Below, in pieces: positions 1 through 44,053 of a stretch of 58,166 nt of DNA. The translations under genes were made by a program, and so were the position numbers. Source of the DNA: Fibrobacter succinogenes (GTDB lineage: Bacteria > Fibrobacterota > Fibrobacteria > Fibrobacterales > Fibrobacteraceae); the NCBI GenBank assembly GCA_902762305.1, contig CACWNW010000024.1, positions 1 to 58,166 on the forward strand. The letters are read 5' to 3'. The notes below the pieces were generated by a model. The model saw nothing but the letters and a program-made list of their open reading frames with translations. It was not told the origin of the DNA and did not search any database. How positions within the stretch are numbered: position 1 is the stretch's first letter; the number at the start of each line of letters is the position of its first letter.

Positions 1-10
1 TGCGGCTCCA

Positions 11-56
11 CTCTCGCCGCCACGGCAAGTTGATACTTGCCGCTTGCGGCTCACAG
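11..56 (+). repeat. Two-stem hairpin motif, copy 1
   Basis: The outer stem pairs GCCGC (16-20) with GCGGC (46-50). After a CA on the 5' side and before a CTT on the 3' side lies an inner 8-bp stem, 23-30 with 35-42, closed by a TGAT loop. CTCTC precedes it and TCACAG follows. Copy 2 (139-184) and an inverted copy (32588-32633) keep the joints and loop but carry different stem bases that still pair. This is what a selected RNA structure or a folded mobile repeat would look like. Confidence 0.7.
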
Positions 57-92
57 CCCCTTGAGCTAGCGCTCGAGGGGCCCTTCTTTTTT
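57..92 (+). terminator. Intrinsic terminator behind hairpin copy 1
   Basis: A 10-bp stem (57-66 with 71-80, one G-T wobble) is followed by a T-rich tail ending near 92. It starts directly after the TCACAG of the hairpin motif. Confidence 0.7.
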
Positions 93-138
93 ATGCCGCT
101 CGGCCCCGATGCTGGAAATGCGCTATGGCGCGGCCTCG

Positions 139-184
139 CTCTCGCCATCACGACCGGTTAATACCGGTCGCTTATGGCTCACAG
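139..184 (+). repeat. Two-stem hairpin motif, copy 2
   Basis: It has the same architecture as copy 1: outer stem GCCAT (144-148) with ATGGC (174-178), CA and CTT joints, inner stem 151-158 with 163-170 and a TAAT loop. The last two base pairs of the outer stem and several inner-stem pairs differ from copy 1 on both sides, so pairing is kept. TCACAG and a terminator follow. Confidence 0.7.
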
Positions 185-221
185 CCCCTTGATGGTAAAC
201 CATCGAGGGGGCTTTTTTTTT
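185..221 (+). terminator. Intrinsic terminator behind hairpin copy 2
   Basis: Stem 185-194 pairs with 201-210 and is followed by nine T residues (213-221). It matches the terminator after copy 1 in position and in its CCCC/GGGG base, but its upper stem differs with compensating changes. Confidence 0.75.
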
Positions 222-315
222 ACCCGAATTCCCCTCGCTTGCGTCTTGCTGACGAAGGTCAGCTTCAGTTTCTTGTGCCCGCACAGGAGATGTTATTGAT
301 TATATTTCCTCCTAT

Positions 316-22190: not shown

Positions 22191-22342
22191 TTATAATTGT
22201 ATTTTTTGCGGTACCGAATGATACCTTTAAAAATGCACAAATCTTTAAAAATGCACAAATTGCACAAAAAGGTGAATATATGCTTGATTTGAACACTGTC
22301 GATTGGAAGACGCTCCCCTTCGGTTATTACGATACCGATTAA
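22191..22342 (+). pseudogene. Duplicated 5' end of ilvE (leader plus 20 codons)
   Basis: 22191-22341 matches 26528-26662, the leader and first codons of ilvE, almost base for base. It has a small deletion in the leader and an extra direct repeat of CTTTAAAAATGCACAAAT. The copied reading frame (22280-22342) keeps the ribosome binding site and gives MLDLNTVDWKTLPFGYYDTD, then hits TAA exactly at the breakpoint. It is followed without a gap by a FISUMP fragment. It is a segmental duplication scar. Confidence 0.85.
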
Positions 22343-25638: not shown

Positions 25639-25687
25639 TGTAGCCAAGGGCGGGCTCCGGGTTTCCGGGGCCCGTCGTTTTTTTTTG
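25639..25687 (+). terminator. Terminator, copy 1 of a duplicated element
   Basis: Stem 25651-25660 with 25665-25674 (10 bp, GTTT loop) is followed by ten T residues. The 48-bp block from TGTAGCC to the T-run recurs with one mismatch at 26419-26466. Confidence 0.9.
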
Positions 25688-26418: not shown

Positions 26419-26466
26419 TGTAGCCAAGGGCGGGCTTCGGGTTTCCGGGGCCCGTCGTTTTTTTTG
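26419..26466 (+). terminator. Terminator, copy 2 of a duplicated element
   Basis: Near-identical to 25639-25687, with one C/T difference that keeps the stem through a G-C or G-T pair. It ends the Lys-rich protein gene. Confidence 0.9.
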
Positions 26467-26600
26467 AGCTTTTGTATTATGCTTTTTTTACTCTTTTTTT
26501 CGAAATAAGGGATGCCAAGATGCCTGCCATAATTGTATTTTTCTGTGCGGTACCGAATGATACCTTTAAAAATGCACAAATTGCACAAAAAGGTGAATAT

Positions 26601-27575
26601 ATGCTTGATTTGAACACTGTCGATTGGAAGACGCTCCCCTTCGGTTATTACGATACCGATTACAAGGACATCAGCATCCACATGGCCGCCACCTGCTTGC
26701 ACTACGGCCAGGAAGGTTTCGAAGGCCTCAAGGCTTACACGGGCAAGGACGGCAAGGTCCGTATCTTCCGCGTCGACGAGAATGCGAAGCGCATGCAGAA
26801 CACTGCGAACCGCGTGCTCATGGCAGTGCCGCCGGTCGAACTGTTCCGCGAGATGGTCCACACAGTGGTGAAGGCTAACGCCCGCTTTATTCCGCCGTAT
26901 GGTCATGGTGCAACGCTCTACATCCGCCCGCTTCTCATCGGTACGAGCCCGGAAGTCGGCGTGAAGCCCTCCGACGAATACCTGCTGTTGATGTTCGTGA
27001 CTCCGGTTGGCCCGTACTTCAAGGACGGTTTCAAGCCTGTGGATATGATGATCAGCCGCAACTTCGACCGCGCCGCTCCGCAGGGTACGGGTACGGTGAA
27101 GGTCGGCGGTAACTACGCTGCCAGCTTGCTTTCCCTCGCCGAAGCCAAGAAGCTCGGCTACTCCAGCACGATTTATCTGGACGCGAAGGAAAAGAAGTAC
27201 ATCGACGAATGCGGTCCGGCAAACTTCTTCGGCATCAAGGGCAAGACCTACGTGACCCCGAAGTCCGAATCCATTCTGCCGTCGATTACGAACAAGAGTC
27301 TGCAGCAGCTTGCTGAATACCTCGGCTACACCGTGGAACGCCGCCAGGTCCCGTTCGAAGAACTCGCTGAATTCAGCGAAACTGCCGAATGCGGTACCGC
27401 CGCCGTGATTACCCCGATCAAGAAAATCGTGGATCCGGTCGCCGGCAAGGAATTCACCTACGGTGACGGCAAGAATCCGGGCCCGGTTTGCACGGAACTC
27501 TTCACGAAGTACACTGCTATCCAGTTCGGCGAAGCCGAAGATCCGTTCGGCTGGACTGAAGTGGTTGATGTGTAA
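26601..27575 (+). CDS. ilvE: Branched-chain amino acid aminotransferase
   Basis: A 324-residue fold-type IV PLP enzyme that makes or breaks down Leu, Ile and Val. Markers: CLHYGQEGFEGLKAY, the Arg of LYIRPLLIG, the PLP Lys in GTVKVGGNYAAS, DECGPANFFGIKG, and ECGTAAVITPI near the C-terminus. The start at 26601 has AAAAAGGTG upstream; longer in-frame readings are not supported. Its leader and first 20 codons are duplicated at 22191-22342. Codon use is strongly biased, as expected for a well-expressed gene. Confidence 0.95.
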   Translation: MLDLNTVDWKTLPFGYYDTDYKDISIHMAATCLHYGQEGFEGLKAYTGKDGKVRIFRVDENAKRMQNTANRVLMAVPPVELFREMVHTVVKANARFIPPYGHGATLYIRPLLIGTSPEVGVKPSDEYLLLMFVTPVGPYFKDGFKPVDMMISRNFDRAAPQGTGTVKVGGNYAASLLSLAEAKKLGYSSTIYLDAKEKKYIDECGPANFFGIKGKTYVTPKSESILPSITNKSLQQLAEYLGYTVERRQVPFEELAEFSETAECGTAAVITPIKKIVDPVAGKEFTYGDGKNPGPVCTELFTKYTAIQFGEAEDPFGWTEVVDV

Positions 27576-29460: not shown

Positions 29461-32400
29461 ATGCGTTCTTGGGGAAATGTTCTTTTTATTTTGTTTTTAT
29501 TAGTGTTTTTGTCGGTGTTGATTGTTGCGTGTAGCGATGATTCAAGCTTTGCAGGCGAAGTTCGCCCGTCGATAGAAAAACGGACTATTTCGGGCTTTGT
29601 GCAGAAGGGGGCTTTCTCGAAGGGTTCTGTTGTTTCTGTGCAGGAACTAGATTCGGTCACTTTTTTACCGACGGGAAATATAGTCGAAGTAAAAATAGAT
29701 GACGATGATGGCGCATTCTCGGTTGAACTTGAGGGCTTTAATTCCCCATATGCGCTGTTTGAGGCCAAAGGTACGTTCAAGAACGAGTTGACGGGTAAAA
29801 AAACGGTGACGCCGGTGACCCTGTATGCGTTTTCCGATATCTCGGTGCGGAATACGGTGAATGTGAACTTGCTGACGTATTTGGAACACCGTCGCGTACT
29901 TCATCTTGTTGCAAATTATGGAATGAGGCTTGAAGAGGCTAAAATTTGGGCGGAACTTGAGGTTTTTGCCGCCTTCGGCATATCCGGTGATTTTGCGCTG
30001 GCAGAAGATTTGAATATCTATGGCGAGAGCGATGGGGATGTTTCGTTGCTTGCGGTAAGTATCTTGATGTTGAGTGGACTGGATAGGAGTTTTTCTTTGG
30101 GGCTGCCCTTTGGTGTCAAGGCGAAATACAATAATGATGAAACCGAAAATCTTGTCAGACGGATTTCGGATTTCGCTGAAGATCTCGAAAAGGATGGATC
30201 CTGGAATAGCAAATCGGTTATTGCGAATATAGCTGATTTTGTGGTCGATCGGAGTCTTGCGGGATTATTCGATTCTTTTTCCGATGCAGTGGTTGACATC
30301 ATTAACCATTTCTGGTGGAATGCGTATGGTCTGTCACCATGCAATGAAAATCTCGATGGAAACATTGAATCGAATAGTAACATGCGGAGCAGGTTGCTGG
30401 GGATGAAATTCCTGTGCAAGGATGGCTCATGGCAAGTCTATGACGCGCTAGGTTTGGCAGGTAAAGATACGACGGGGAATCCAGATGACAAGGATGTTCG
30501 CGATACAACATGGAACGGGGAATGGAGTCATCTTAAGCGGGATACGCAGGGATTGGAATGTACGACGTTCGGCCAGATTGCAAATGGTGTGTATGACCCG
30601 GACAATGTGTATTTTTGCTATGGAAAAGAATGGAAACGATTCTATGGGAATAAGGATATAAAGTACATCGAACTTGATGATGACCGCGATGGGCAAGTGT
30701 ATCGCGCTGTGCGCATAGGGAAGGATATATGGATGGCCGAGAACTTGAATTATGATGTCGGCGACGGTTTTGTTCCGGGAAATCCGTACGATTCATATGG
30801 CGGCTACTATAAATGGGACGTTATCGAAAATGCCTGCCCGGAACATTGGCATGTCCCAAGTAAGGAAGAGTGGGAATATCTGTACGCATATATGGACAGT
30901 TCGTATAGGGATTTTTTGTCGCGTAGCTATGGTTTGTGGCCCGATGGAAATGACAAATATGGTTTTTCGGTTGTGCCGGCCAGAATGTATAACTTCGGAG
31001 AACTTGTTCAGGGAGATATTTTTGCCGAGTTCTGGACAAGTTCCTTCAGGGAAGCCGGTGCGAGAAAGCTTGCTTATTCGTTCGTGGTGGATAAAAATGC
31101 TGCGGAGTTTGAATCTGGATATAATGAAATGGCGCAGATGTCGATTCGTTGTATTCATGATTTTGATTGGCGGCGAAAATGCAACGAATCGAACTTGAAT
31201 GATGTTGTGCAGTTGGACCGCTTGACGTATTATGTCTGTCGCGAGGATGGATGGGTTTCCATGACTGCTGAAGAATATGGTGCCTATTCTGGGACCATTG
31301 AACACGAGGGTGATGCCAAAGAAGAAAATGGTTCTTGTTTTGTGTACGAAGATAGCAGTTGGCGAGAACGCGATGATACCAACTGCCTGTATGCACTAGG
31401 AGGCTGTACGGCTGCTCGACAGGGCGAAGTAGCCCAATCGCCTAAAAATGAACAGTGGTTTACTTGCCGTGATAGTTCCTGGAAATTTTCGGAACCTATT
31501 GAAGTCGATACGCGATTGTGGGAAAATGATTGCATATATGGCAATGTCAATGTTGGCCCAATTTATCATTACTATTATGTGTGTCAGAATGGCTGGCGCT
31601 ATGGTACGTACCTCGATAGCGTCTTGGTCTCGCTAGGCGGAACGGCATGCTTGGTGGAGGGCGATACATCCAGGGTGAAATATGCGGACATGTATTTCGT
31701 TTGCGAAAAATCCTCTGAGCGTGCGCCACGCGAGTGGAAAAGAGCTCCGATGATTTATAATGATACTTACAAAGATAGAGATGAGTGTAGGGCGGCTGGG
31801 CGATATGGCGATGGCACGATTCACGACAGGTATTCCAATATAGAACGGATGTATGTTTGCGATAATGGCAGTTTCAGGAATGCGACAGAAAGGGAACGGC
31901 AGCTGGGACGTGGATGCGTTAGCTATATCTACGGGAAGACGGTCAAACTAGGTCAATCGAATTACACGTGCGATGAATCGGGCTGGTCGGTTGCTGCGGG
32001 GCAACTGGAAACGGGTTCTTTCGTCGATTCCCGCGATGGCAGGGAGTACAAGACTATAGGGATTTGGAACTATGTATGGATGGCGGAGAACCTGGACTAT
32101 GCGGATTCTGTCGTGATGCCCGAACTGGAAGGCAATCGCTGGTGCTATGACGACAAGCCTGCAAAATGTGCCCAGTATGGTTCCCTGTATTCTTCGACTG
32201 TGGCGAAAGATGTTTGCCCTGCAGGGTGGCATTTGCCGACAACGAATGAATGGTACATGCTGCTCTATTTTACTCGTTTTATGGGCGAGAATGAAATTGC
32301 CGTCTTGAGGTCGACTTCGGGCTGGATAGATTACAAGGGCCTGGCTGCGAATGGAAATGACAGGCTTGGATTTACGGCACTGCCAGGCGGCTTGCGGTAT

Positions 32401-32574
32401 GACGAAGGCCCGTATGACTACGAAGGCCACAAGATTGTGTTTTGGGTTGATCGCGAAGATATGGTGACGCAGAATTATGGGCTGGCCATCGACTATAAGG
32501 AACTGCCTGACTTTATTTCCTTCGACAACGAGGATTTGGGCTTCTATGTTCGCTGCATAAAGGATCCCACCTGA
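29461..32574 (+). CDS. Large lipoprotein with two FISUMP domains
   Basis: A 1037-residue lipoprotein (lipobox LIVAC, Cys24). Residues about 45-330 form an N-terminal region (TISGFVQKGAFSKGSVVSVQ...) with an Ig-like start. A FISUMP domain lies at about 400-565 (DDDRDGQVYRAVRIGKDIWM, then CPEHWHVPSKEEWEYLY) and a second at about 853-1035 (DSRDGREYKTIGIWNYVWMA, then CPAGWHLPTTNEW). Between them are short repeated Cys-containing modules such as YYVCREDGW, FTCRDSSW and YYVCQNGW, five or more copies. Probably surface-exposed. Possible promoter TTGAAC (29397) and TTATAT (29422), spaced 19 bp. Function unknown. Confidence 0.85.
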   Translation: MRSWGNVLFILFLLVFLSVLIVACSDDSSFAGEVRPSIEKRTISGFVQKGAFSKGSVVSVQELDSVTFLPTGNIVEVKIDDDDGAFSVELEGFNSPYALFEAKGTFKNELTGKKTVTPVTLYAFSDISVRNTVNVNLLTYLEHRRVLHLVANYGMRLEEAKIWAELEVFAAFGISGDFALAEDLNIYGESDGDVSLLAVSILMLSGLDRSFSLGLPFGVKAKYNNDETENLVRRISDFAEDLEKDGSWNSKSVIANIADFVVDRSLAGLFDSFSDAVVDIINHFWWNAYGLSPCNENLDGNIESNSNMRSRLLGMKFLCKDGSWQVYDALGLAGKDTTGNPDDKDVRDTTWNGEWSHLKRDTQGLECTTFGQIANGVYDPDNVYFCYGKEWKRFYGNKDIKYIELDDDRDGQVYRAVRIGKDIWMAENLNYDVGDGFVPGNPYDSYGGYYKWDVIENACPEHWHVPSKEEWEYLYAYMDSSYRDFLSRSYGLWPDGNDKYGFSVVPARMYNFGELVQGDIFAEFWTSSFREAGARKLAYSFVVDKNAAEFESGYNEMAQMSIRCIHDFDWRRKCNESNLNDVVQLDRLTYYVCREDGWVSMTAEEYGAYSGTIEHEGDAKEENGSCFVYEDSSWRERDDTNCLYALGGCTAARQGEVAQSPKNEQWFTCRDSSWKFSEPIEVDTRLWENDCIYGNVNVGPIYHYYYVCQNGWRYGTYLDSVLVSLGGTACLVEGDTSRVKYADMYFVCEKSSERAPREWKRAPMIYNDTYKDRDECRAAGRYGDGTIHDRYSNIERMYVCDNGSFRNATERERQLGRGCVSYIYGKTVKLGQSNYTCDESGWSVAAGQLETGSFVDSRDGREYKTIGIWNYVWMAENLDYADSVVMPELEGNRWCYDDKPAKCAQYGSLYSSTVAKDVCPAGWHLPTTNEWYMLLYFTRFMGENEIAVLRSTSGWIDYKGLAANGNDRLGFTALPGGLRYDEGPYDYEGHKIVFWVDREDMVTQNYGLAIDYKELPDFISFDNEDLGFYVRCIKDPT

Positions 32575-32587
32575 GTCGAACGGTCGC

Positions 32588-32633
32588 CTGTGAGCCGAAA
32601 GCGACTCGTATTAACGAGTCGTGTCGGCGAGAG
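32588..32633 (-). repeat. Two-stem hairpin motif, copy 3
   Basis: Read on the minus strand: outer stem GCCGA (32628-32624) with TCGGC (32598-32594), CA and CTT joints, inner stem CGACTCGT with ACGAGTCG and loop TAAT, then TCACAG. The last two outer-stem pairs and several inner pairs differ from copies 1 and 2 but still pair. CGAACGGTCGC occurs on both sides (32578 and 32671) as a direct repeat, and a partial motif (TGTGAGCCG) lies at 32664-32672. Unlike copies 1 and 2 it is not followed by a terminator. It sits between convergent genes, just after polA. Confidence 0.7.
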
Positions 32634-32681
32634 TGAGGCGATGCCGGAGTAGCCTTACGGGATTGTGAGCCGAACGGTCGC

Positions 32682-35519
32682 TTAATGCGCTTCTAGCCAG
32701 TTCTCGCCGAAGCCGACGCTTGCGACGAGAGGCACCTTCAATTCCATGGCGCCTTCCATCTCGGATTTTACCATCTGGGCCATCGCTTCCACCTGGTCGC
32801 GGGGGCATTCGAACACGAGTTCGTCGTGCACCTGCAGCATCATCTTGAGCGGGAGCTTTTCTTCGTTGATGCGCTTCTGGATGCGTATCATCGCAATCTT
32901 GATGAGGTCGGCGGCGGAGCCCTGGACGGGAGTGTTCACGGCCATGCGCTCGGCCATTTGCGATTCCATGCGGTCACTGCTATCGATGCCTGCGATGTAG
33001 CGGCGGCGGCCCGACAGGGTTTCCACGTAGCCGTCGCGGTGGGCGGCCGCCTTGGTATCTTCGATAAACTGCTGTACGCCCTGATACATCCCGAAGTAAC
33101 CGTCGATGAAGTCCCTTGCCTGCGACATCGGGATTTTCAGGTCACGGGCGAGGCGGAAGGCCGTCATTCCGTAAAGCACACCGAAATTCACCACCTTCGC
33201 GTCGCGCCTCATGTCGCTCGTGACATCGACGAGATCCACCCCGTAAATCGCGGCAGCGGTGCGGGCGTGGATGTCGATTCCTTCCTTGTAACTTTCGATG
33301 AGCGCGGCATCGCCACTCAGGTGCGCAAGCATTCTGAGTTCAATCTGCGAGTAGTCTACCGCGAGAATCACGTTGTCCTTGCTCTGCGGCACGAACGAGG
33401 CGCGAATCTTCTTGCCTAAGTCGCTACGCACGGGGATGTTCTGCAGGTTCGGATCGCGGCTCGAAAGGCGCCCTGTCGCGGTTCCCCACTGGATAAAGCT
33501 TGTGTGGATGCGGCGCGTGTCTGGGTTCACCAGCGTGGGGAGCACCGTGATGTAGGTGCTCTGCATCTTCTTGAGTTCGCGGTACTCGATGACGGAGAAT
33601 ACGATCGGGTGCGGCGCACGGAACGAGAGCTCCTCGAGAACGACCGCGTCGGTGCTGCGCTTCTTGATTTCGGGCAGTCCGAGCGTATCGAAAAGTACGT
33701 CGCCTAACTGCTTGGGGGAACCGATATTGAATTCGACTCCCGCCATGTCGCATATTTCTTTCTCGAGATTCTCGATGCGGCGCTGCAACTCCTGTTCCAG
33801 CGTCTTGAGGGCGGGAACGTCAATCGCGACGCCGACCGTTTCCATCTGGTAGAGAACCTTCAGGAGCGGCATCTCCTGCGCGAAGAAGTACTTCACGTAG
33901 TCGAGCTTTTCGAGTTCCTTCTTGAGCGGCTCCCACAGGCGCAGCGTATAGACTGCATCTTCGGCGCCGTATTCCGTCGCGTCCTTGATGGGCGCGCGGT
34001 TGAACGTAATCTGATTCTTGCCGCGCCCGATGAGGTTCTCTATCGGAATCATCTCGTGCTGAAGGCGCTGCATCACCTGGTTGTCGAGGCCGAGGCCCGA
34101 TTGTCCCGGCGAAAGCATCCAGGCGGCAATGAGCGTGTCGATGATATTTGCACTGTCGATATCGGCCTGCGGAATCTTGAACGCGCGTGCGAGAACGTGC
34201 AAATCGAATTTCGCGTTGTGGAATACGAGCTCGCGCGGCTTCCCGGTGTTTTCCACCGGGGTAGCATCTGCGATGAATTCCTTGAACCAGTTCGCGACCT
34301 TGTTGAAGTCGAAGTTGCCGCCCTTGCTAGCGGGAAGTGGAAACCCGATTTCGTCGGTGTGCGCGAGCGGAATGTAGTAGCCCTTCGCTGGATCTGCCGA
34401 AAGGCAAAGCCCCACGATGTTGCATTGCATCGGGTCGAGCCCATCCGTTTCGGTATCGATACCTACGGTATTTGCAGCCGCGAATTCGGCCTTCATCTGT
34501 TCGAAAATTTCTTCGGTATCGACGCAGACGTACGTGGGCAAGTCTTCTACGGGGAAGCTTGCGGCAACGGGTTCGCCGTCCGTGCCATTTTCGCCAACGC
34601 CTTCTGCGCCTTCGCCGTCACGCACGAATCCCGCCTTGCTCGGGACTTTTTCCAGCAGGCGCAACAGGCTGTTGATTTCGTGGTCCTTGAACATCTGCGC
34701 GAGCGTATCTACGTGCAGGCCGTTGTATTCGAGTGCGTCCAGGTTCCCGCTGAATGCACGCTTGGTCTGGAGCGTCACGAGTTCGCGGCTCAGGAAAGCT
34801 TTCTCGCGGTTGTTTGCGAGGTTGTCGTGTAATCCCTTCTTGGTAATCTTGTCGAGGTTTGCGTACAGGTTGTCCATGTCGCCGTAGTCGTTCAGCAACT
34901 GGATGGCCGTCTTGGGGCCCACCTTCGGTACGCCGGGAACGTTGTCGCTCGCATCTCCCATGAGCGCGAGGTAGTCGCGAATCTTTTCCGGCGGGAGCCC
35001 ATACTTTTCCATCACCTGCTCGGGGCCGAAATCAATGCCGTCGGCACCCTTTGTCAAATGGAAAAGGTGAATCTTGTCCGTCACGATTTGCGACATGTCC
35101 TTGTCTTTACTGAGAATCACCACGTGGTCGAATCCCGCTTCGATGGCTGCCGTTGCGGTAGATGCCATCACGTCGTCGGCCTCGTAGCCCGGTTCCGAAA
35201 GCAGCGGGATTCCGCTGGCCTCGAGACTTTCTCCCAGGAGCGGCATCTGCGCCGCCATCTCTTCGGGCATTGGCCCGCGATTCGCCTTATAGTCGGGGTA
35301 AAGTTCGTGTCTGAAAGTCTTCGTGTGCGCCACGTCGCGTGCGATTGCGAAATGCGTGGGCTTGTGCTTAGCCAAGATGCGGAGCACAGCACCCCAGTAG
35401 CCGTGCATCATCGACACGTCTTCGCCCTGGCTGTTCTTGAGCGGGTTCTGCGAATACGCGTAGAACATGCGGAACGCGAGCGCGTAGGAATCGAGCAGTA
35501 ATAAAGTCTTTTCAGGCAT
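32682..35519 (-). CDS. polA: DNA polymerase I
   Basis: A 945-residue enzyme with all three domains. 5'-3' exonuclease (1 to about 290): LLLLDSYALAFRMFYAY, GYEADDVMAS, LMGDASDNVPGVPKVGPKTA. 3'-5' exonuclease with intact proofreading carboxylates (TVGIDTETDGLD). Polymerase A domain: LSSRDPNLQNIPVR, AVDYSQIELRMLAHLSGD, RRDAKVVNFGVLYGM and MLQVHDELVFE. The start MPEKTLLLLDS (35519) is preferred to an ATG 14 codons upstream because it fits the family. It is used in repair and Okazaki-fragment processing. The stop lies inside the partial hairpin repeat at 32664-32682. Confidence 0.96.
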   Translation of the reverse strand: MPEKTLLLLDSYALAFRMFYAYSQNPLKNSQGEDVSMMHGYWGAVLRILAKHKPTHFAIARDVAHTKTFRHELYPDYKANRGPMPEEMAAQMPLLGESLEASGIPLLSEPGYEADDVMASTATAAIEAGFDHVVILSKDKDMSQIVTDKIHLFHLTKGADGIDFGPEQVMEKYGLPPEKIRDYLALMGDASDNVPGVPKVGPKTAIQLLNDYGDMDNLYANLDKITKKGLHDNLANNREKAFLSRELVTLQTKRAFSGNLDALEYNGLHVDTLAQMFKDHEINSLLRLLEKVPSKAGFVRDGEGAEGVGENGTDGEPVAASFPVEDLPTYVCVDTEEIFEQMKAEFAAANTVGIDTETDGLDPMQCNIVGLCLSADPAKGYYIPLAHTDEIGFPLPASKGGNFDFNKVANWFKEFIADATPVENTGKPRELVFHNAKFDLHVLARAFKIPQADIDSANIIDTLIAAWMLSPGQSGLGLDNQVMQRLQHEMIPIENLIGRGKNQITFNRAPIKDATEYGAEDAVYTLRLWEPLKKELEKLDYVKYFFAQEMPLLKVLYQMETVGVAIDVPALKTLEQELQRRIENLEKEICDMAGVEFNIGSPKQLGDVLFDTLGLPEIKKRSTDAVVLEELSFRAPHPIVFSVIEYRELKKMQSTYITVLPTLVNPDTRRIHTSFIQWGTATGRLSSRDPNLQNIPVRSDLGKKIRASFVPQSKDNVILAVDYSQIELRMLAHLSGDAALIESYKEGIDIHARTAAAIYGVDLVDVTSDMRRDAKVVNFGVLYGMTAFRLARDLKIPMSQARDFIDGYFGMYQGVQQFIEDTKAAAHRDGYVETLSGRRRYIAGIDSSDRMESQMAERMAVNTPVQGSAADLIKIAMIRIQKRINEEKLPLKMMLQVHDELVFECPRDQVEAMAQMVKSEMEGAMELKVPLVASVGFGENWLEAH

Positions 35520-36230: not shown

Positions 36231-37579
36231 TATTTCAACCTGTCCTTCAAATCGGAAATCTCTTGTGAAGTCAATCCGATTTTTTTCAGGTATTTTTCCG
36301 TCGCCGGAGCCCAGTCTGCATTCTGGATATCGGGAACTTCGATTCCCTCCGCATGGTAGACTGCTTGCAGGTTTCTTGTGACGACGGCCTTGAAGAAATC
36401 GACTTGCTTTTCGTTCAGGTGTACCTGACGGCCGTCGATGACATTGTAGTAGTTGCTAAAAGTCTTCGCGTAGTCTGCCTGGAGATCTTCGGAGGTGGCT
36501 CCCATGAGCGCTTCCAGAATGGCGATTGTAAAACCGGTGCGGTCCATGCCGTAAGTGCAGTGTGCCAGGTAGGGGCCTTCGTGTTCGATCATGAAGCGGA
36601 ACCCTCTTGCAAGCCCTTCCTTGAAAGGCGTGGAGAAAAATTCTACGGGCAAGGCCAAGAAGATGACGTTTTGTGTCGCATAATAAGAATTGTCGAAGTT
36701 CCGGAAGGATCTGGCGGAATTTTCCGAATCGGCCAGGTTGATAAATGTGGCGACACCAGCATTTTTCGCGAGGGAGTCTACATAGGAATTGCGACCGAGG
36801 CCTGGGTCTATGGGGCTGGATGAACGGTAGAGTCTCTTCTCGCCCATGCCAGTGGTGCGGACTTCCCTGAAATTGGCGAATTCTTCAATAGAAAGGTCTG
36901 GGTAGTTTTCTGTATAGTAATACATGTTCTGGAAATTGCTCATTTCGAGGCCGAACAGAAAACCGCCCTTTTCTTTCATGGATATAGTGACGTTGATGGG
37001 AGCTTTATCGGGGGTGATTCCAAATATTTCCGCAAGGTACCCGTTATGGATAGACAAAGTCAGGTAATCGTTACCTCTTATTGCCGAAATAAAGAACCAT
37101 GCGATAGGTACATTGCTGGAGTGTTCGGCAATAGGTATGTCGACCGTGTCGTAGCCGTCTATCGCCAAGGTTACGATGTCGCCGTGTTCGAATTTTGTCA
37201 AGAAGGAATCTGCCGAATAGAATAGGTACAGGTTGCCGGAAGATATTCCGTTTTCAAAAAGGGTGAGGTGAAGGTCGGAACTTGCAGTATCTGCTTCTGC
37301 GGAATCAACCTCTGTCGTATCTTCTGGTGCAATCGTACCGGTTTTTACAGAGTCTCCAATTGCAGCGGTATCTGCTTGTGTTGTGTCTTGAACTGCGGTA
37401 GAGTCGGTTCCGTCTGTTTGCGAAACCGTGGCGATTTTATCGGCATCTTCCTGTGAGGCTTGAGGCTCCGCAATATCTTGAAGGTCTGTGAACGATACGG
37501 AATTGCTGCAGGCAACAAAAACCATTGTGCAGAAAAGGAATGCTGCAAGAATCGAGCACTTCTTTGTCATCTGGAACAT
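36230..37579 (-). CDS. Lipoprotein tyrosine phosphatase (Y_phosphatase3 type)
   Basis: A 449-residue lipoprotein (lipobox VFVAC, Cys24 counted from 37579; a start at Met4 is also possible). An acidic Thr/Asp/Gln-rich linker (about 30-110) leads to a beta-rich region, then a phosphatase domain. The P-loop AHCTYGMDRTG has catalytic Cys341 and the CX5R pattern, as in bacterial Y_phosphatase3/PTP enzymes that act on phosphotyrosine or phosphoinositides. The signature GLGRNSYVDSLAKNAGVATFINLADSE precedes it. The outer location suggests an extracytoplasmic substrate. It sits oddly between the GCS2 gene and the amidohydrolase gene, and overlaps the latter by one base. Confidence 0.82.
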   Translation of the reverse strand: MFQMTKKCSILAAFLFCTMVFVACSNSVSFTDLQDIAEPQASQEDADKIATVSQTDGTDSTAVQDTTQADTAAIGDSVKTGTIAPEDTTEVDSAEADTASSDLHLTLFENGISSGNLYLFYSADSFLTKFEHGDIVTLAIDGYDTVDIPIAEHSSNVPIAWFFISAIRGNDYLTLSIHNGYLAEIFGITPDKAPINVTISMKEKGGFLFGLEMSNFQNMYYYTENYPDLSIEEFANFREVRTTGMGEKRLYRSSSPIDPGLGRNSYVDSLAKNAGVATFINLADSENSARSFRNFDNSYYATQNVIFLALPVEFFSTPFKEGLARGFRFMIEHEGPYLAHCTYGMDRTGFTIAILEALMGATSEDLQADYAKTFSNYYNVIDGRQVHLNEKQVDFFKAVVTRNLQAVYHAEGIEVPDIQNADWAPATEKYLKKIGLTSQEISDLKDRLK

Positions 37580-41282: not shown

Positions 41283-41472
41283 CGTATTGCCTTTAATTGC
41301 CTTTTAAGCCGGAGGTATATCCGTTCTCGTCTGGCGGCTGTCGGGATGTTTTCCCGGGTCGTCGATGGGGTGGCTAAATAATACCAATTTTTGCGGCTTT
41401 TGGCTTGCTATTGCCTGGAACGGGTATGTGGGAATCTATATTTGCAAAGGAACGTATGGGTAGGAGATGTTT

Positions 41473-43233
41473 ATGAAAAAGATTGCAAGTTTCGTGCCGT
41501 TCGTATTCGCTGTGGTGTTCCTCGTCGCCTGCGGCGATGACGGTAACGATTTTGTGTCACGTCCTTCGGACGATTCGTTCTCCAGCGAGTGCGAAGACTG
41601 CGACGATGCATCTTCGTCTAGCGGGAAAGAGACTGTCGCAAATTCTTCGAGTTCTCGTAAAGACAAATCTAGTAGCAGTGCTAAATCTAGCAGCAGTTCG
41701 GCAAAATCGGGCAGTTCTATAATCGGCGCGACTCCGTGCAAGACCGATAGTACGGATACTTGCGAATATGGCGAGTTGTTGGATGACCGCGATGGCAAAA
41801 CCTACAGGACCGTGAAAATAGGTAGCCAGATCTGGATGGCTGAAAACCTGAACTATGAGACTGCCGACAGCTATTGTGATAAGGATTCTGCGATATATTG
41901 CTCCAAGTTCGGTCGCTTATACACATGGGCTGCGGCTATGGACAGCGTGGGCGCGTGGAGCGAGAGTGGCAAGGATTGCGGTTATGGTACGACCTGTTCG
42001 GCGACCGGTACCATACGTGGAGTCTGCCCCAGCGGCTGGCACTTACCGAGTAATGATGAGTGGGAAGCCTTGATTGTTGCCGTAGATCCTTCTATTATGA
42101 GATACACAACCCAAAATAATGCAGGACCCATGCTCAGGTCTTCTAGCGGTTGGGGAATGAATATCTATACTGGAGTAGTTGGTGCAGGAACTGACGACTA
42201 TTCCTTTTCGGCGCTTCCTGCCGATTACAAGTCTAGAGGCGGGTGTTATGGCGGCGATGGTTGTAGCGCGCGTTTTCTTAGTTCAACAGAGTATAGTGAC
42301 ATAGGGGCATACAATATGGGCTTGGACTACGATCACGTCTACGCGCACATGGTAGCCTTGGATAAGAGCGGCTTGCACTCTGTTCGCTGCCTTAAGGACG
42401 AAAACGCAGCGACCCGTTCATCTTCGTCTTCGATCAAACAGTCTTCTTCGTCGTCAATCAAATCAAGTAGCAGCGAATCCGTTTCTAGCCCAGAAGTAAT
42501 CGTGCCTCCTTGTAAAACAGAGACGGAAGATAATTGTGAATATGGTGAGTTGACTGATGCCCGCGATGGTCAGACTTACAGAACCGTGAAAATTGGTACC
42601 CAGACTTGGATGGCTGAGAACCTGAACTTCGAAAGTTACAAGAGTTTCTGCTATGAGAATTCTGCAAAATACTGTTCCAAGTATGGTCGCCTATACACAT
42701 GGGCTGCGGCTATGGACAGCGCCGGTACGTGGAGTTCGAGTGGCAAGGGTTGTGGTTTTACTGTGAGATGCACCCCAACCGGTATCATACGTGGGGTTTG
42801 CCCCGAAGGTTGGCACTTGCCTGATTCAAAGGAGTGGGGTGCGTTGATGGTTGCAGTTGGTGGAAAATCTATTGCGGGCACGATGCTCAAGTCTACCAGC
42901 GATTGGATTTATACCGGTGATAATGGCATCGACGCCTATTCTTTTTCGGCGCTTCCTGCAGGCAGCATGGTTGAAGCTTCGTCTTTTTACGAGGAGGGCA
43001 AAAACGTATATTACTGGAGTTCTACGGAACTCAATGCTGGCTTTGCAGACAATGTATCCTTAGATGGAGAAAACGGAGCCTATGGACCTTCCGATTCCAG
43101 CGTAATCGTTGAATTTCAGAACGATTCATTATACTACGATGAAGTCTACAAATTATATAAAGAAACTGGCATAAACGTTTTCAACAAGAACATGCAAGGC
43201 TACTCTGTCCGTTGCCTCAAGGACTCCGAATAA
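41473..43233 (+). CDS. Lipoprotein with two FISUMP domains
   Basis: A 586-residue lipoprotein (MKKIASFVPFVFAVVFLVAC). The start at 41473 is chosen because GGAG at 41463-41466 needs spacing; the ATG at 41467 touches it. A Ser-rich linker precedes FISUMP 1 (about 98-308: DDRDGKTYRTVKIGSQIWMA, YGRLYTWAAAMDS, CPSGWHLPSNDEW). A second Ser-rich linker leads to FISUMP 2 (about 355-586: DARDGQTYRTVKIGTQTWMA, CPEGWHLPDSKEW, SVRCLKD). The two domains are near copies of each other. The signal sequence is nearly the same as in the next gene. Function of FISUMP is unknown; surface exposure is likely. Confidence 0.88.
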   Translation: MKKIASFVPFVFAVVFLVACGDDGNDFVSRPSDDSFSSECEDCDDASSSSGKETVANSSSSRKDKSSSSAKSSSSSAKSGSSIIGATPCKTDSTDTCEYGELLDDRDGKTYRTVKIGSQIWMAENLNYETADSYCDKDSAIYCSKFGRLYTWAAAMDSVGAWSESGKDCGYGTTCSATGTIRGVCPSGWHLPSNDEWEALIVAVDPSIMRYTTQNNAGPMLRSSSGWGMNIYTGVVGAGTDDYSFSALPADYKSRGGCYGGDGCSARFLSSTEYSDIGAYNMGLDYDHVYAHMVALDKSGLHSVRCLKDENAATRSSSSSIKQSSSSSIKSSSSESVSSPEVIVPPCKTETEDNCEYGELTDARDGQTYRTVKIGTQTWMAENLNFESYKSFCYENSAKYCSKYGRLYTWAAAMDSAGTWSSSGKGCGFTVRCTPTGIIRGVCPEGWHLPDSKEWGALMVAVGGKSIAGTMLKSTSDWIYTGDNGIDAYSFSALPAGSMVEASSFYEEGKNVYYWSSTELNAGFADNVSLDGENGAYGPSDSSVIVEFQNDSLYYDEVYKLYKETGINVFNKNMQGYSVRCLKDSE

Positions 43234-43297: not shown

Positions 43298-44053
43298 ATG
43301 AAAAAATTTGCAAGTTTCGTGCCGTTCGTGTTCGCCGTGGCGTTCCTTGTCGCCTGTGGCGATGACGACAGCTTTACCCCGGCCCCGCATGAGGACGATT
43401 TATCGCATGAGGACGATACGCCGGAATATTCATCCGATAGTGATGACGGAAAGTTCACCGATTCCCGCGACGGCCAGGTTTACAAGACTGTGAAAATCGG
43501 CGACCAGATCTGGATGGCGGAAAATCTCAACTACGCCTATTTGCAGCCAACAACAAGGATGGACTCTTCCAGTTTCTGCTACGAAAATAGCGCCGATTCC
43601 TGTGCTAAGTACGGTCGTTTGTATTTGTGGAGTGCCGCCATAGATAGTGCCGCCGTGTTAAGTACGGATAATATTGTGTGTGGCTACGGCTGGTCCTGCA
43701 CGTTTCCTGAGAAAGTGCGCGGCGTGTGTCCCGAAGGTTGGCATTTGCCCTCGAAGGATGAGTGGGAGACCCTGATCACGACAGTGGGCGGTTCCGGTAC
43801 GGCGGGCGAAAGGCTCAAGTCGCGGAGCGGCTGGAACGACCGTGGTGGCAAGGATGATTACGGCTTTGCCGCGTTGCCGGCTGGCTACTATGGCAGTGCT
43901 TTCGGCTTTGCGGGCGACTACGCTTTCTTTTGGAGTTCTACGGAGTTCGGTGGCTCCGACGCGTACGACATGAAGCTGTATTACTCCGATTCTGCGGTCT
44001 TGGACAAATACGATAAGTTCATGGCTTTGTCGGTTCGTTGCGTCAAGGACTAA
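43298..44053 (+). CDS. Lipoprotein with one FISUMP domain
   Basis: A 251-residue lipoprotein (MKKFASFVPFVFAVAFLVAC). Its signal peptide differs from that of the preceding gene at only a few positions, so the pair arose by duplication. A short acidic linker (EDDLSHEDDTPEYSSDSDD) is followed by one FISUMP domain (DSRDGQVYKTVKIGDQIWMA, YGRLYLWSAAIDS, CPEGWHLPSKDEWETLI, YGFAALPAGYY, SVRCVKD). GGAGG lies upstream of the ATG. It is 64 bp from the previous stop, and a terminator follows. Confidence 0.88.
   Translation: MKKFASFVPFVFAVAFLVACGDDDSFTPAPHEDDLSHEDDTPEYSSDSDDGKFTDSRDGQVYKTVKIGDQIWMAENLNYAYLQPTTRMDSSSFCYENSADSCAKYGRLYLWSAAIDSAAVLSTDNIVCGYGWSCTFPEKVRGVCPEGWHLPSKDEWETLITTVGGSGTAGERLKSRSGWNDRGGKDDYGFAALPAGYYGSAFGFAGDYAFFWSSTEFGGSDAYDMKLYYSDSAVLDKYDKFMALSVRCVKD

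Follow-up and report, generated by a model that had tools for sequence, protein, structure and literature searches.

The hairpin motif that occurs three times in the window (the whole 58,166-nt stretch of Fibrobacter succinogenes DNA analyzed here) is part of a two-hairpin repeat family that is specific to Fibrobacter and spread through the whole genus. We consider this family best explained, with a probability of roughly 0.6, as REP/BIME-like interspersed DNA repeats without a RAYT partner, whose arms are kept complementary at the level of DNA. The units lie at the 3′ ends of genes in one orientation, form tandem arrays, are represented at some sites by a single boundary repeat, and are swapped for units of another type between unchanged flanks. 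The family is new: searches of open-licence papers yielded no description of it for Fibrobacter, and it is absent from Rfam. The comparison with Rfam 15, proposed in the earlier note on this DNA, gave no gathering-level match (best weak matches of 23.4 and 19.2 bits against cut-offs of 45 and 49.5) and none at copy 3, and a known RNA family was rejected. A rumen cellulose-degrading genus carries a large repeat family that fits neither described REP tag class and has no RAYT.

The three hairpins read as previously described, with outer stems (GCCGC/GCGGC, GCCAT/ATGGC and GCCGA/TCGGC in copies 1, 2 and 3, respectively), CA and CTT joints, inner stems (CGGCAAGT/ACTTGCCG, CGACCGGT/ACCGGTCG and CGACTCGT/ACGAGTCG), URAU loops (TGAT, TAAT and TAAT) and a TCACAG end. 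Alignment of the copies together with their upstream sequence revealed that this motif is the 3′ half (hairpin 2) of a unit of ~96 nt composed of two adjacent hairpins, each an inverted repeat. Another covarying hairpin (hairpin 1) makes up the 5′ half; it is seen in copies 2 and 3 and missing or shortened in copy 1, which is cut off at the contig end; the window holds these three copies only (Table 1). The unit as a whole has the consensus GACCG-Y-TCG-[stem]...[stem]-CTC-R-C, followed by TCTCGC-NN-hairpin-NN-GCTCACRG. Hairpin 1 (GACCGYTCG...CTCRC) comprises a 2-bp foot, a kept 2×2 TC/TC mismatch and a variable stem, while hairpin 2, ending in GCTCAC, comprises the outer and inner stems; the letters GCTCAC and CTCGC are fixed, and the feet of the unit are GACC, TCTC and GCTCACRG. 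Position Y of CCGYTCG covaries with position R of CTCRC (C-G in 11 sequences, T-A in 11), and the hairpin 1 stem inside the constant mismatch varies among CG, UA and GC pairs. Each hairpin (~40–50 nt) is a member of a dispersed family and not a single 20–40 bp unit. The unit boundaries are direct repeats, (A)GACCGYTCG, and units are joined in short head-to-tail arrays.

Table 1. Repeat units and adjoining hairpins identified in the window.
Feature	Positions	Strand	Remarks
Copy 1: hairpin 2 at 11–56, hairpin 1 shortened or cut off	1–56	+	Covariance model 48.2 bits; contig starts here
Terminator-like hairpin GCCCCTTGAGC-TAGC-GCTCGAGGGGC and T-run, between copies 1 and 2	56–92	+	Relatives' rrn 3′ end has interleaved terminators
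Copy 2, hairpin 1: CCGCTCGGCC...GGCCTCGC (GC-tc-GGCC/GGCC-tc-GC)	94–138	+	Unit 91–189, 85.5 bits
Copy 2, hairpin 2 (motif of the earlier note)	139–184	+	
Terminator-like hairpin CCCCTTGATGG-TAAA-CCATCGAGGGG and T-run	185–219	+	
Copy 3, hairpin 1: GACCGTTCGG...GCCTCAC	32634–32679	-	Unit 94.2 bits
Copy 3, hairpin 2 (motif of the earlier note)	32588–32633	-	
Partial next unit (GGCGACCGTTCGACTCAG): direct repeat at the flank, with which most copies end	32570–32587	-	

Copies 1 and 2 are followed, as had been noticed, by 11-bp terminator-like hairpins with T-runs (56–81 and 185–210); the hairpins are real, but the arrangement belongs to one site only, the 3′ end of an rRNA operon, which in relatives has the order 5S rRNA, terminator, unit, terminator, unit, terminator. 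In the draft genomes examined, contigs end at this rrn 3′-end site, which explains why the window (contig C24) opens inside copy 1 and why contig C8 opens with the same ~100 bases. Copy 3 begins 2 nt past the TAA stop codon (32682–32684) of a gene named polA from its domains, and the partial unit next to it overlaps the stop codon of a converging Fib_succ_major gene.

Within the genome to which the window belongs (G000, 3.6 Mb in 57 contigs; sites below are given as contig:position), the core pattern with ≤3 mismatches has 24 matches and the reversed pattern 0. A covariance model built from these genome copies detected 93 copies at E ≤ 0.001, many of them in arrays with a period of ~95–97 nt. 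The arrays are mosaics of exchanged modules and hold 2–5 units (five at C5:175626, four at C10:94036, and three each at C14:115361, C2:305805 and C30:11746). A covariance-model search over Fibrobacter genomes had been proposed earlier; across a sample of draft and metagenome-assembled genomes with relatives at species distance, matches were obtained in 37/37 Fibrobacter genomes (3 to 66 per genome, lower bounds for a model trained on G000) and none in 24 other Fibrobacterota genomes representing other families of the order, class and phylum. Among the matches listed in a pattern scan of all prokaryotes, all were Fibrobacter or Fibrobacteraceae/Fibrobacterales records except one in Kuenenia, which is probably due to chance. 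Spread by viruses or plasmids was rejected, as an exact-pattern search of 2.9 million viral contigs and a search of 72,556 plasmids both yielded 0 matches.

The position of the units relative to genes is strongly one-sided. When gene context was assigned with a simple ORF caller in the regions around copies, the 5′ end of the first unit was located -2 to +9 nt from a same-strand in-frame stop codon in 29/65 clusters of G000 and in 49/77 clusters of relatives, compared with 3.7% of random positions, and the distance was mostly 0–3 nt (up to 0–4). The mirrored arrangement, with the 3′ end of the unit at an opposing stop codon, was found in 5/65 and 4/77 clusters, respectively. Other units start directly behind the T-run of a terminator, and many copies follow one. 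The occurrence of units behind RNase P RNA (C20) and 5S rRNA indicates that the stop codon as such is not what matters. Still, the units abut stop codons more exactly than would be expected if insertions there were simply tolerated, which suggests that they have some use at the 3′ end of the mRNA. As the family is unlike the E. coli REPs, its placement also suggests that gene 3′ ends are convergently used, or tolerated, as sites for repeats. At one site (C25:41274), the gene before the unit lacks its last ~15 codons in G000, runs into the unit and stops at a TAG in hairpin 1, while its relatives (L323, L342, L363) end in VDVLGS(N/D)NKL*.

The first rival explanation to be weighed is a cis-acting 3′ UTR RNA element, in which the RNA fold is under selection because a double hairpin past the stop codon delays the release of ribosomes or keeps 3′ exonucleases out. 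The same-strand position just past stop codons fits this explanation, as do the frequent location of units between stop codon and terminator (e.g., C6:5615 and C4:22747) and the stability of the RNA fold of window positions 1–215 (z = -7.1, terminators included). A precedent exists in E. coli, where, as cited in PMC12306157, 260/496 REPs lie within 15 nt of a stop codon, with ribosomes stalled there and translation lowered. The two-sided changes that keep pairing, on which the earlier note had built its case for a selected fold, are also genuine: in 24 aligned copies 91.7% of stem cells pair, so that pairing is kept genome-wide, the point on which that note had made its RNA proposal depend, and two-sided changed cells number 69 vs. 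a mean of 21 in shuffled and 3–10 in slid controls. The step from covariation to a selected fold nevertheless fails. Template switching in replication produces compensatory changes within one mutation event (PMC8794818), and covariation alone is therefore indecisive. A more discriminating feature is the type of departure from pairing, since RNA tolerates G-U and not A-C. Among 147 distinct pair-strings, stem departures are split into 34 G-T and 35 A-C, whereas RNase P RNA of the same genus (counting pairs with a Watson-Crick majority) has 71 G-U and 8 A-C. The contrast (Fisher p = 6e-8 on cells, 0.02 on positions) is approximate in size, given that RNAalifold favours G-U columns, and it is drawn on non-independent cells and on unit alignments fitted to the model. 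This balance, as read from the aligned copies, speaks for pairing kept in double-stranded DNA or via arm-to-arm copying, and the RNA reading is weakened by it. It is further opposed by the turnover of site occupancy described below and by the copies that follow terminators or RNase P RNA or lie among the rrn terminators. Of the two options originally offered, a folded mobile repeat is therefore the better fit, and an RNA element we regard as unlikely. The family may serve as a warning case, as its covariation is of textbook quality and yet the G-T/A-C balance points to pairing at the DNA level.

Substantial turnover of units is observed between relatives. A unit is present at the sites of G000 in 9/20 cases in G029, 11/20 in G033 and 6/17 in G026, while the genes adjoining the compared sites are mostly ~80–99% identical. 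Orthologous sites without a unit are either clean or retain one boundary repeat as a scar, as in G029 at C6:5615 (GAGATCGTTCGCGG) and C8:13732; the polA site reads TAAGCGACCGCCCCAC in G029 and TAAGCGACCGCTCATGCTCACAAAG in G030 (one boundary repeat) vs. TTAAGTAACC in G003. Direct repeats flanking units sometimes take in local sequence (C16:74052; C4:22747 in G033), yet they belong to the motif of the element. Elsewhere the unit itself differs: at C1:40757 nearly identical flanks in G000 and G029 enclose units of different types in both hairpins, at C4:22747 a different unit stands between matching flanks in G033, and at C1:306123 G026 keeps hairpin 1 with another hairpin 2, while G036 differs in both. 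Judging from these alignments, units appear to be replaced as modules with their position kept, although at the species distance of these relatives horizontal transfer, conversion and independent insertion are inseparable as the cause of replacement. Tandem copies are up to 98% identical, and copies at unrelated sites are ≤93% identical (one segmental duplication excepted); no recent dispersed copies were seen among unrelated sites (best match ~93%), and active jumping is therefore not established.

A bolder explanation would invoke a dedicated system that inserts, deletes and exchanges two-hairpin DNA cassettes at set positions behind stop codons and terminators throughout the genus. It would read the folded strand via its kept TC/TC foot (GA/GA) and the boundary repeats GACCGYTCG, in the manner of integrons or RAYTs but without either enzyme. 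We consider such a system quite improbable. Integron attC sites are likewise folded sites (~60–140 nt) directly behind stop codons, a likeness shared by the Fibrobacter unit. In contrast to attC, however, the Fibrobacter units are not associated with gene cassettes, their adjoining genes include the housekeeping gene polA, and inspection of the units by eye recognised no attC-type core site or consensus.

Also improbable is the explanation of the units as neutral, decaying palindromes devoid of recognition or function, whose covariation arises only from quasipalindrome template switching and module shuffling. The single-event origin of compensatory changes mentioned above, the equality of G-T and A-C departures and the recurrence of different module types at the same site would all be expected, but one-sided placement and the fixed foot letters would not. 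Most importantly, the TC/TC mismatch of hairpin 1 is kept in 143/158 copies (most exceptions being fully paired) although template switching would erase it, and template switching alone is therefore insufficient. Flanked as it is by variable pairs, an imperfection kept in this way resembles a mark for recognition. On the opposite strand TC/TC becomes a tandem GA/AG (GA/GA), which is a stable motif in both DNA and RNA. In DNA-energy folds of both strands, the reverse strand is predicted to have an advantage of ~3 kcal/mol in stability, which is no more than a hint. A functional reverse-strand RNA, hinted at by GA/GA and T·G pairs, was rejected as unsupported, A-C departures not exceeding G-T. 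Finally, the possibility that the hairpins terminate transcription, weakly or as a back-up, where transcription units end is very improbable: they do occupy 3′ ends, the rrn terminator region included, and one hairpin 2 class (GGCTCG..CGAGCCTTTTCC) is terminator-like, but most classes have no T-run (TTTGTTGCTCAC), separate terminator-like hairpins stand before or after units, and several relatives have no unit at the same gene.

With the units viewed as REP/BIME-like DNA repeats, their spread and exchange would proceed as DNA, in the form of hairpins, cruciforms or single strands at the replication fork. Complementarity of the arms would be renewed by copying or template switching and not by selection on transcripts, the TC/TC foot that is retained (GA/GA on the opposite strand) may mark recognition by a putative DNA-acting protein, and gene 3′ ends and positions behind terminators would be the sites at which insertions survive. 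By analogy with REP/BIME elements, candidate effects on the host would be that the units bind gyrase where transcription units end, or that they hold back ribosomes or exonucleases at the 3′ end of the mRNA. A search for a mobilising enzyme found none, Y1_Tnp being missing from the complete copy-rich genomes G026, G029, G033 and G003 (59, 25, 64 and 32 copies, respectively). A RAYT/IS200 partner was rejected on this ground and on the finding that the one Y1_Tnp in G000 has no unit within its ~1.5-kb flanks.

A side-by-side comparison with known repeat systems revealed both likenesses and substantial differences. REP/REPIN elements, which are GTAG-tagged and RAYT-mobilised, resemble the Fibrobacter units as short imperfect palindromes with tens to ~100 intergenic copies, often close behind stop codons. 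The Fibrobacter unit differs in its length and in having two unlike hairpins joined head-to-tail, in the lack of a GTAG or CGTC foot, and in its abundance in many genomes without Y1_Tnp/RAYT. CGTC-tagged REPs (PMC3733652) are similarly a palindromic family without an identified dedicated transposase; they carry a foot that the Fibrobacter units lack and occur mainly as HH (inverted) dimers, HT dimers being negligible, and that study does not mention Fibrobacter. BIMEs share the mosaic of interchangeable hairpin modules, the arrays and the location at the 3′ ends of transcription units, but alternate in orientation according to PMC2817692, whereas the Fibrobacter arrays are head-to-tail. Given the absence of a GTAG/CGTC foot and of a RAYT and the head-to-tail arrays, we describe the units as REP-like repeats and not as a REP family.

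Several additional observations concern smaller repeats nested in the units. A second hairpin repeat of ~53 nt, CCACCTAAAGGTGG-CCATG-..CACNTAAGC..GCTAAGTG-NNCAAAG, is inserted at the junction of hairpins 1 and 2 in several units (C3:77163–77201, C25:52089–52127, C25:67854–67892 and C8 ~36950–37006 of G000; L310–L321) and also stands alone, G013 and G031 having as many as 15 copies; it looks like an IS200/IS605-type MITE. Its interpretation as an optional third module (CATG...CAAAG) was rejected, as it is also found in unrelated sites. An insert of ~85 nt (AAATAAACCTAAGCCGAGTACAGC...GAAATCGCAAT) lies in the hairpin 2 loop of three separate units (the C2:240768 region and C9:69834 of G000, and L359), and at sites orthologous between G033 and G029 (L342, L351, L324) another insert (AAAAGCGTGCAAAACGAG...GCGTC) interrupts the 5′ arm of hairpin 2 (GCAA^CC), which marks the units as hot spots for nested small repeats.

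Other observations concern the genes and repeats of the window. The polA genes of G004, G006, G019 and G061 match in at least two pieces within a single open frame, additional residues lying around query positions 435–442. The Fib_succ_major domain (PF09603) is found in paralogous proteins at 29461–32574 and 41467–43233, with which positions 43298–44053 share a repeated WMAENLN stretch at the DNA level. A 99-nt direct repeat (22243–22341 and 26564–26662, 4.3 kb apart) is 100% identical, and neighbouring genes are followed by two terminator-like hairpins, at 25639–25685 and 26419–26465, that are almost the same (98% over 47 nt).
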